A DNA stretch of 64,000 nucleotides from Sphingomonas ginsenosidivorax (GTDB taxonomy: Bacteria > Pseudomonadota > Alphaproteobacteria > Sphingomonadales > Sphingomonadaceae). The notes below the pieces were generated by a model. It was not told the DNA's origin. It did no database searches and saw only the letters and a program-made list of their open reading frames with translations. The stretch lies in contig NZ_VOQR01000001.1 of assembly GCF_007995065.1 (NCBI RefSeq), forward strand, positions 3,041,001-3,105,000, written 5' to 3'. Shown here one piece after another: positions 38,801 through 40,632 of this stretch (position 1 is the stretch's first letter; every line of letters starts with the position of its first letter). The translations under genes and the position numbers were made by a program.

Positions 38801-38816
38801 TGGCGTAGCGCCCCCT

Positions 38817-38895
38817 CCCCGTTCGTGCTGAGCGTAGTCGAAGCACCTGCGCCTGGGGCCTGTCCTTCGACTGCGCTCAGGACGAACGGGAGGGG
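38817..38895. repeat. Family I paired inverted repeat (copy 1)
   Basis: Outer arms 'ccccgttcgtgctgagcgtagtcgaag' and 'ccttcgactgcgctcaggacgaacggg'. It fills the gap between the chorismate mutase gene and the convergent methyltransferase gene, whose stop codon follows 3 bases later. Confidence 0.82.
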
Positions 38896-38897
38896 GG

Positions 38898-39998
38898 TTA
38901 CTCTGGGTCCTGACTTTCGTTGGGATGACGGATGGGGGCTGGCCGGGGGCGCTTGCCCGCGAGCGCCGACAGCACGCCGCGCAGCGTGCGGATCTCCATC
39001 CCGGACCAGGCGGGCTTGGTCAGCAAAGTGCGCAGCGTACGGCGAAGCGCGGGGCCGCGGTCTTCGGGGAAGAAATAGCCGGCGCCGACGAGCATGCCGT
39101 CGAGCTGCGCGATCATGCCATCGAGCTCCTCCTGCGAGGACGGGACCGGCATGTCGACCTCGGGCGGCTGGGCGAGAGCCACGCCCTTCGACCATTCGTA
39201 CGCGACCAGGATCACCGCCTGGGCGAGGTTGAGGCTGCCGAATTCGGGGTTGATCGGCACGGTGATGATCGTCCGCGCGACCGCGACGTCGTCGGTCTCG
39301 AGGCCGGAGCGCTCGGGGCCAAACAGAATCGCCGAGCGGCCGGGGCCTGTGTGGATCGCGGTGCCGGCGACTTCCGGGGTGACGACGGGCTTGGTGACGC
39401 CGCGCTTGCGCACCGTGGTGGCGTAGACATGCTCGCAGTCGGCGACCGCGTCGGCGACGGTGTCGTAGACCTGCGCGTTCTGGAGGACGATGTCGGCGCC
39501 GCTGGCGGCGGGGCCGGCGGTAGGGTTGGGCCAGCCGTCGCGCGGGGATACGAGGCGCATCTCGACGAGCCCGAAATTGAGCATCGCGCGGGCGGCTTTG
39601 CCGATGTTCTCGCCGAGTTGGGGGCGGACGAGGATGATGATTGGGGGGGGCGTTTGGGTCTCACCCCGTTCGTCCCGAGTAGATGCCGAGCTTGTCGAGG
39701 CATCGTATCGAGGGGCAGGAGGCTGTTTCCTTGCCGCCTCCGACAGCGCTGCCCAGTCCGCACGGAACAGCGCTTCCTTTTTCTTGCGCGACCAGTCCTT
39801 GACCTGAAACTCGGCTGCCAGCGCCTCCTGGCGCGACGGGAACTCCTGGCTCCACATCAGCGTCACCGGGCGACGCTTCTGCGTGTAGCCGGCGACCTCA
39901 CCGAGATTGTGTTGGCCGATCCGGCGTTCGAGGTCATCGGTGTGACCGGTGTAATAGCTGTCGTCGGCGCAGCGGACGATATAGGCCCAGAATGTCAT
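38898..39998 (-). CDS. GIY-YIG nuclease domain fused in frame to TrmJ-type RNA methyltransferase
   Basis: Residues about 1-90 form a GIY-YIG domain (WAYIVRCADDSYYTGHTDDLERRI, SRQEALAAEFQVKDWSRKKK); about 117-355 form a SpoU/TrmJ methyltransferase (ILVRPQLGENIGKAARAMLNFG, YATTVRKRG, ILFGPERSGLETDDV, PINPEFGSLNLAQAV). TrmJ methylates the 2'-O of tRNA position 32. The joint, residues about 97-113, is the translation of a repeat arm (39667-39714), and no ATG, GTG or TTG precedes the TrmJ part in frame downstream of it. The last ~12 residues (RHPNESQDPE) also come from a repeat-like arm. A repeat probably joined two genes; alternatively the methyltransferase starts from a rare codon. Confidence 0.85.
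   Translation of the reverse strand: MTFWAYIVRCADDSYYTGHTDDLERRIGQHNLGEVAGYTQKRRPVTLMWSQEFPSRQEALAAEFQVKDWSRKKKEALFRADWAALSEAARKQPPAPRYDASTSSASTRDERGETQTPPPIIILVRPQLGENIGKAARAMLNFGLVEMRLVSPRDGWPNPTAGPAASGADIVLQNAQVYDTVADAVADCEHVYATTVRKRGVTKPVVTPEVAGTAIHTGPGRSAILFGPERSGLETDDVAVARTIITVPINPEFGSLNLAQAVILVAYEWSKGVALAQPPEVDMPVPSSQEELDGMIAQLDGMLVGAGYFFPEDRGPALRRTLRTLLTKPAWSGMEIRTLRGVLSALAGKRPRPAPIRHPNESQDPE
39667..39714. repeat. Single family I arm inside the GIY-YIG::TrmJ frame
   Basis: The stretch 'cgttcgtcccgagtag...gcatcgtatcgaggg' matches the right-hand half of the paired unit at 40012-40138 ('cgttcgtcccgagtag...gcgcgtatcgaggga'). It encodes the linker of the fused protein. Confidence 0.8.
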
Positions 39999-40011: not shown

Positions 40012-40138
40012 CCCTCGATACGGCATCTCGACAAGCTCGATGCCTACTCGGGACGAACGGAGGGGGGGGTATAGGAGTTCGATCACACCGTTCGTCCCGA
40101 GTAGCGATCGAGCGAAGTCGAGAGCGCGTATCGAGGGA
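40012..40138. repeat. Family I paired inverted repeat (long variant)
   Basis: Left half 'ccctcgatacggcatctcgacaagctcgatgcctactcgggacgaacgg' and right half 'ccgttcgtcccgagtagcgatcgagcgaagtcgagagcgcgtatcgaggg' are imperfect inverted copies, 127 bases end to end, with a G-run in the centre. It lies between nrdR and the fusion gene. Confidence 0.85.
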
Positions 40139-40155: not shown

Positions 40156-40632
40156 CTATTCCCGCCCCACCTCTTCGACACTCCCGGCGAACGCCTCGAA
40201 GTCCTTCGCCTCGCTGAAATCGCGGTAGACGCTGGCGAAGCGGATATAGGCGACCGAATCGAGGCCCTTGAGCCCGTCCATCACCATCTCGCCGATCCGC
40301 TTCGACGTGACCTCGTTCTCGCCGAGCGTCTCCAGCTGGCGCTGGATGCCGCTGACGAGTTTCTCGATGCGGACCGGCTCGATCGCGCGCTTGCGGGTCG
40401 CGATCGAGAGCGAGCGGAGCAGCTTCTCGCGGTCGAACGGTTCGCGGCGGCCCCCGCCTGCTGAATCGGCGCTCTTCAGCACGAACAGGTCACGCAGCTG
40501 GATGCGTTCGAACGTCGTGAAACGCGCGGCGCAGCCTTCGCACTGGCGCCGGCGCCGGATCGCCGCCCCGTCTTCGGTGGGGCGGCTGTCCTTTACCTGG
40601 CTGTCTTCATGTCCGCAGAAGGGGCAGCGCAT
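40156..40632 (-). CDS. nrdR: Ribonucleotide reductase regulator NrdR
   Basis: A repressor of ribonucleotide reductase genes that senses ATP/dATP. The N-terminal zinc ribbon [17 protein letters not shown]...[15 protein letters not shown] places cysteines at 3, 6, 31 and 34; the ATP-cone follows ([20 protein letters not shown]...VSGIQRQLE). 158 residues. It directly follows the small gene and glyA, a standard alphaproteobacterial order. No NrdR box was searched for in the window. Confidence 0.95.

Follow-up and report, generated by a model that had tools for sequence, protein, structure and literature searches.

A GIY-YIG gene fused in frame to trmJ in Sphingomonas as a probable member of a repeat-bracketed, REPtron-like unit

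Introduction

In Sphingomonas ginsenosidivorax, a GIY-YIG nuclease domain and the tRNA methyltransferase TrmJ are read as a single protein, and the stretch that joins them resembles a repeat lying next to the gene. The fusion of these two domains is itself already known (2006–07). The locus raises the question of how the two genes came to share one frame and what part the repeat had in it. We analyzed a stretch of 64,000 nt of contig NZ_VOQR01000001.1 (positions 3,041,001 to 3,105,000; in the following called the window, whose coordinates are used throughout) and compared the locus with its relatives.

Results

GIY-YIG and TrmJ share one open frame

The minus-strand frame from 39998 to 38898 is uninterrupted over 366 codons, as judged from the ORF and its translation. 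The principal features are:

38898..39998, minus strand: GIY-YIG, linker and TrmJ in one open frame of 366 aa (ORF and profile matches)
39723..39998, minus strand: GIY-YIG domain of the repeat-bracketed subfamily B1 (profile match and residue conservation)
38964..39647, minus strand: TrmJ domain (SPOUT tRNA 2′-O-methyltransferase), aa 118–345 (profile and structure-database matches)
40156..40632, minus strand: nrdR, the upstream neighbor, which adjoins trmJ in relatives without the GIY-YIG gene (ORF and locus comparison)

The protein matches the GIY-YIG profile PF01541 at aa 4–74 (69 bits; cut-off 22.6) and the SpoU methylase profile PF00588 at aa 120–267 (78.4 bits; cut-off 29.7). Scored on the fused protein, the TrmJ profile TIGR00050 reached 149.1 bits, below its curated cut-off of 167.15, and the TrmJ half matched the TrmJ structure 5gra with an E-value of 1.6e-110. 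Residues Y6, Y16, R26 and H30 are kept in all 40 fused loci examined and E63 in 39 of them; these five are taken to be catalytic. The profile match and the conserved Y, Y, R, H and E mark the domain as a GIY-YIG nuclease, and the SpoU domain together with the TrmJ-family match identifies TrmJ. In the predicted structure the GIY-YIG domain is confident and the TrmJ part less certain, with a whole-chain pTM of only 0.46; aa 92–114 of the linker have a pLDDT below 50 and are predicted to be disordered.

Pfam and NCBIfam returned only GIY-YIG and SpoU/TrmJ-type families and no HUH (Y1 tyrosine transposase) domain, so that membership in the RAYT family was rejected. The gene is not a homing endonuclease either: it lies between nrdR and trmJ, and no split host gene (intron or intein) was seen.

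The linker is a translated repeat arm

Around the linker and at the end of the frame, the following elements were located:

39666..39714: 3′ bracket, a repeat arm translated as the linker (repeat comparison and frame)
40012..40138: 5′ bracket, in which this repeat forms an inverted dimer, in the interval from nrdR to the GIY-YIG start (repeat comparison and folding)
39662..39664, minus strand: GTG (GTGAGA) beside the arm, out of frame with TrmJ (sequence, compared with GIY-less loci)
39643..39650, minus strand: run of eight C (G on the plus strand), between GTG 39664–39662 and TrmJ (sequence)
38904..38930, minus strand: degenerate CGTC...CCA palindrome translated into part of the C-terminal end of TrmJ, in the HPNESQDPE region (by eye; stem imperfect)

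An earlier note on this DNA had taken the linker for the translation of a repeat arm with a full copy at 40012–40138. This is borne out: the frame is continuous, and the arm is 84% complementary over 49 nt to 40012–40060, which is one half of the inverted dimer. The 127-nt dimer folds well above 200 shuffled versions of itself (z = −10.6). Three single arms of the window fold no better than shuffles (z = −1.1, −1.5 and +1.2) and two 27-nt B1 repeat cores have no folding excess (z = −0.4 and −0.7); among the B1 repeats tested, only the dimer out-folds its shuffles. A CGTC tag with an adjacent perfect stem was absent from the flanks of the window locus (L001).

Just 3′ of trmJ, at 38811–38897, lies a second inverted dimer of the same general type, its arms 81% complementary and 1 nt apart. 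The palindrome at 38904–38930 would be a second place with repeat-derived residues in the fused ORF.

A codon scan of the window frame found no in-frame ATG, GTG or TTG from the end of the GIY-YIG domain to TrmJ, which confirms what had been noted for the stretch after the linker; the nearest lies 71 codons upstream, within the GIY-YIG domain. The accompanying idea that the start of trmJ was erased needs qualifying: a GTGAG survives out of frame beside the arm, so the start may persist. Four GIY-less loci (L018, L026, L333 and L334) have a similar GTGAG as their trmJ start, and from this resemblance we infer that GTG 39664–39662 is possibly a relic of the old one. The slip-prone C8 run could switch between a fused and a separate TrmJ.

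Linkers of the 40 fused loci measure 69–240 nt, come in 21 different lengths and lack conserved sequence; "fused" was defined as in frame without a stop, so lengths in multiples of three are no independent finding. Internal initiation of TrmJ is possible in 27 of these loci because a start codon lies within the linker; the other 13, the window among them, have no ATG, GTG or TTG there.

The fused frame is widespread

A single local fusion event in this strain does not fit the distribution of the frame. In a survey of the genus, a B1 GIY-YIG gene was found at E ≤ 1e-20 in 153 of 267 genomes, and in at least 81 of the 267 the GIY-YIG domain lies in an open frame of at least 360 codons (one row per genome); the 14 of these rows that were read as loci all continue into trmJ. 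Among 43 distinct neighboring pairs of GIY-YIG gene and trmJ (L054 repeats L017 and was counted once), 41 are in frame and 40 fused, in a selection by best E-value that is biased toward full-length or fused loci. The three non-fused pairs are L017, in frame with a stop, and L021 and L048, in another frame. When 35 trmJ loci from 37 genomes of the same genus were read, 17 had the GIY-YIG gene as neighbor, 14 of them fused. The loci of this set and of the genus survey were likewise best matches by E-value and lean toward full-length ones. A search across the order took in 247 genomes; of the 225 that belong to other genera, at least five carry the fusion. Among the protein matches listed (7994 found), 120 of 120 rows, query included, contain both domains.

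Codon comparison of 703 non-independent pairs shows that purifying selection acts on both domains, with median dN/dS of 0.20 for GIY-YIG (whose dS is often near or above 1), 0.20 for TrmJ and 0.62 for the linker.

Relatives that carry the same fusion without a repeat had been named as evidence against a repeat-derived origin. Such cases occur, in small number: L326, a locus of another genus, has the fusion with a repeat-free linker of 36 nt, and the fused loci L144 and L147 show no bracket at the threshold used. A former arm was likely lost there.

The unit appears to have entered at the nrdR–trmJ joint

In 51 of 53 GIY-YIG loci nrdR lies upstream, 300–1500 nt before trmJ. Among the 28 GIY-less loci with nrdR beside trmJ, the gap is at most 60 nt in 21, and 20 have an in-frame 4-nt [AGT]TGA stop/start overlap between the two genes; five more GIY-less loci have no nrdR beside trmJ. 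Since nrdR and trmJ mostly touch in GIY-less loci, the unit seems to have inserted where two operon genes were closely joined. The overlap in 20 of 28 further suggests that the GIY-YIG gene arrived with a repeat on each side and that the linker repeat is its 3′ bracket. The idea that a lone repeat was inserted late, between genes already in place, was rejected, because nrdR and trmJ mostly touch at the GIY-less sites. The earlier proposal that repeat insertion or recombination made the fused gene is right about the repeat origin of the linker and about an insertion beside a once separate trmJ that preceded the fusion, but it was not the repeat that inserted between giy-yig and trmJ.

One locus, L339, retains one arm and a fragment of the second, has no GIY-YIG gene and starts trmJ with its own ATG. 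Presence and absence of the GIY-YIG gene are interleaved on the TrmJ tree; the trees, built from ~89 residues and modestly supported, do not settle the number of insertions. In L027, L031 and L135 the GIY-YIG domain is 81–88% identical to that of the window, yet the linker and bracket are of another type. These loci suggest that a B1 gene can be retained at its site and its bracket replaced.

Two GIY-YIG subfamilies are bracketed by repeats

For a first set we took 76 single-domain GIY-YIG loci from 80 genomes of the phylum, among the matches listed, leaving out 8 further short frames; a bracket was a repeat match in either orientation with a score of at least 20. Brackets flank 7 of 8 genes of subfamily B1 and 26 of 32 of a second subfamily, B2 (together 33 of 40; 7 of 40 have none at this threshold). 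Among the other single-domain GIY-YIG genes none of 36 is bracketed, and among neighboring ORFs 6 of 175 are. Within the seven genomes that have both kinds, 8 of 11 B genes and 0 of 7 other GIY-YIG genes are bracketed. With none of the 36 genes of the other class bracketed, brackets as a general property of GIY-YIG genes were rejected. The division into B1, B2 and other was drawn on the tree after the bracket scores had been seen, and a separate B2 set was therefore tested (see below).

A larger B1 set of 60 loci, with one duplicate (L040 = L055), left 59 distinct loci, 50 of which have an inverted score of at least 20. The motif CCTGAG..CGAAGG, devised after the sequences were seen, lies downstream of 8/8 B1, 3/32 B2 and 2/36 other genes of the first set; in the larger B1 set (n = 59) it occurs upstream in 30 and downstream in 44. 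A CGTC tag with an adjacent perfect stem was found in none of the eight B1 loci.

Strong brackets, with scores of 45–56, flank two control genes (269 and 299 aa; L110 and L117) whose nearby GIY-YIG genes are of the unbracketed class.

Close relatives keep in step with era and dnaG

Close relatives of the window GIY-YIG gene also occupy two other sites, the rnc–era and the yqeY–dnaG intervals, and most of them are bracketed (gene names were checked on L040 and L042). At era, the frame runs through the 3′ repeat and stops 1–10 nt inside era in 14 of 18 distinct loci, in 11 of them at exactly 4 nt. At dnaG it runs through the 3′ repeat into a stop/start overlap with dnaG, likewise of 1–10 nt, in 3 of 3. 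Exceptions to this pattern are L041 (stop at codon 4), L044, L049 (frameshifted) and L290. In L045 and L046, two further B1 loci, the stop precedes the repeat.

Many B2 genes lie between CGTC REPs

Many B2 brackets are perfect CGTC REPs, with a CGTC tag pointing outward, a stem of 8–9 nt, a loop of 4–5 nt and a CCA tail facing the gene. In the first set, 19 of 32 B2 loci have a perfect hairpin in any orientation, and both hairpins in the correct orientation were found in 13/32 B2, 0/8 B1 and 0/36 other loci. The genome of the window has six B2 genes with six different palindromes, and a 464-kb sample that includes the window contains 85 perfect tagged hairpins versus 2 in mononucleotide shuffles.

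For the separate set, named genomes were scanned with the B2 alignment, yielding 80 loci, or 75 after five with short flanks were dropped. An inverted match of at least 20 occurs in 43 of the 75. Perfect CGTC-type hairpins lie upstream in plus orientation in 42, downstream in minus orientation in 46 and on both sides in 30; the opposite orientations number 14 (upstream, minus) and 28 (downstream, plus). In 107 control ORFs of the same loci the corresponding counts were 2 and 0, with correctly oriented hairpins on both sides in 0 of 107; the flanks of 95 of these controls overlap those of the GIY-YIG genes, and the 12 lying apart gave no hits. By name, the records with both hairpins belong to Pseudomonadota, Nitrospira, Dehalococcoidia, another Chloroflexi, Deltaproteobacteria, a Rifleibacterium, an Elusimicrobia bacterium and an Uhrbacteria bacterium, many of them MAGs.

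Distances between B2 proteins correlate with those between their hairpins (Mantel r 0.415, p ≤ 5e-4, kinship ignored; computed over the 77 loci, out of 112, that have a hairpin), and the two arms of a B2 locus are identical in 18 of 44 cases versus 4.3% between loci. The REP pattern occurs in 10 of 17 genomes with and 8 of 63 without a B2 gene (Fisher p 2.3e-4, kinship ignored). It represents some REP families only and is unmatched in 7 of the 17. Among the eight B2-less genomes with the pattern, G136 has broken B2 pieces only, and G112 and G085 share a genus with a B2-carrying genome. In underpowered 20-kb samples (a G108 region beyond the contig end and the 164-nt L263 were left out), the REP excess is weak: 3 of 14 B2-carrying genomes versus 1 of 24 (rank test p 0.04, Fisher p 0.13).

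One genome without a B2 gene, G096, contains 152 copies of the CGTC REP pattern, often as inverted pairs ~127 nt apart. On our reading, these repeats may have outlived their gene or lack one.

Discussion

Proposed origin and rival explanations

What looks new here is the repeat-bracketed GIY-YIG unit. Judging from sequence comparison and from analogy with known systems, the GIY-YIG half of the window protein probably belongs to a unit resembling a REPtron, in which a short repeat stands in inverted copies on the two sides of a GIY-YIG nuclease gene and would be what the enzyme acts on. A nuclease for structured DNA sits between palindromic repeats, and the repeat or its dimer is therefore suggested as substrate. 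The nuclease would recognize and cut a hairpin or cruciform formed by its bracket repeats; cutting followed by repair-copying would spread the unit and short repeat-only copies, as is thought of RAYT transposases acting on GTAG REPs. Inside operons the unit precedes trmJ, era or dnaG, all of them housekeeping genes. Its frame passes the 3′ repeat without a stop and keeps step with the gene behind it, by stop/start overlap at era and dnaG and by full fusion at trmJ. Such step-keeping would protect both the translation of the neighbor and the nuclease gene from loss by frameshift. TrmJ activity probably has nothing to do with the nuclease. No target duplication was defined.

More tentatively, and with the balance close to level, B2 genes may be the missing dedicated enzymes of CGTC REPs, while the sister group B1 would serve the CCTGAG..CGAAGG repeats of sphingomonads and others. 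Both would then be RAYT-independent, repeat-propagating units of several phyla that hold their place by running in step with housekeeping genes, at trmJ to the point of fusion.

The brackets could also arise passively, if repeats come to lie around these GIY-YIG genes, or the genes insert into pairs of repeats, and the nuclease does nothing to the repeat. REPs are indeed described as common at gene ends and inside reading frames (PMC3733652), some B loci have no bracket, and B1 brackets are swappable; but a passive process would hardly spare the other single-domain GIY-YIG genes (0/36 bracketed, and 0/7 in the same genomes) or produce the preferred orientation and matching arms, and we consider it unlikely. 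Quite unlikely, too, is a host-domesticated bifunctional enzyme in which GIY-YIG works with TrmJ, for instance as a structure-specific nuclease dimerized by SPOUT, and the fusion is kept for joint function. Such an enzyme would agree with the similar purifying selection on both domains, the conserved catalytic residues and the spread of the long frame (≥81/267 genus genomes, with the fusion in ≥5/225 genomes of other genera of the order). Against it stand linkers of 69–240 nt without conserved sequence and predicted to be disordered, close GIY-YIG relatives that precede era and dnaG unfused, plain TrmJ in many relatives, and the interleaved presence and absence on the TrmJ tree.

A chance or technical fusion, by a sequencing slip in the C8 run or in a degenerating pseudogene, is highly improbable. 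The run is slip-prone and is preceded by the GTG in another frame, but the same kind of open frame recurs in 39 other loci, so no slip is needed; the sequencing or assembly error that the earlier note had allowed for was rejected on these grounds. The two domains found together in all 120 of the listed protein rows and a dN/dS near 0.2 likewise speak against a chance product.

If the REPtron-like reading is true, one anatomy could explain both the enzyme-less CGTC REPs (including dRS3 and RPE-4/RPE-6) and the unexplained GIY-YIG::TrmJ fusion, directly testable enzyme–substrate pairs would follow, and the locus would exemplify a selfish gene tied to core genes by translational step-keeping. Palindromes flank small GIY-YIG genes across many bacteria, and these genes may be a clue to the enzyme that a large class of bacterial repeats has so far lacked.

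Comparison with known systems

The closest solved structures to the window GIY-YIG half are 1zg2 and 1ywl (UPF0213, YhbQ-type GIY-YIG). Unlike B1, the class that we assume to contain the YhbQ-type genes is bracketed in 0 of 36 loci. With the TrmJ structures 5gra and 4cnd the window protein has the entire SPOUT domain and the C-terminal helices in common; these are stand-alone chains of 243 and 267 residues, whereas the window TrmJ is fused.

The GIY-YIG::SPOUT fusion of Erythrobacter litoralis (Dunin-Horkawicz 2006, PMC1564403; ELI_05635 in Tkaczuk 2007, PMC1829167) has the same two domains in one protein. GIY-YIG is N-terminal according to the 2007 paper, and the 2006 wording is of a C-terminal fusion with the MTase. 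In the portions consulted, both papers leave the function open and do not mention repeats, spread or an origin by insertion. The domain was called Slx1-like in 2006, with 1zg2 and 1ywl placed in the same family, and eukaryotic Slx1 is described there as a structure-specific endonuclease (PMC1564403). B2 presumably belongs to this Slx1-like family as well. We found no link between a GIY-YIG gene and REPs in the open literature (which leaves bioRxiv outside and includes few subscription journals).

CGTC REPs, which include dRS3 of Neisseria and RPE-4/RPE-6 of Rickettsia, are apparently without a dedicated transposase, according to Di Nocera 2013 (PMC3733652). Many B2 brackets share their tag, stem, loop and tail; unlike in the published account, a GIY-YIG gene lies between them at B2 loci. 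The B1 bracket of the window is not of the CGTC type.

A REPtron, as defined by Nunvar 2010 (PMC2817692) and Di Nocera 2013 (PMC3733652), is a RAYT/TnpAREP gene between two inverted GTAG REPs. B1 and B2 units are alike in having a small nuclease gene between two inverted repeats, with like repeats dispersed in the genome, and in B2 the repeat may, as in the REPtron, be tied to the gene lineage. They differ in the enzyme, a GIY-YIG nuclease instead of an HUH tyrosine transposase, and in the repeat, which is a CGTC REP (B2) or another, weaker palindrome (B1) instead of a GTAG REP. B1 differs further in reading through its own repeat into the genes of the operon.
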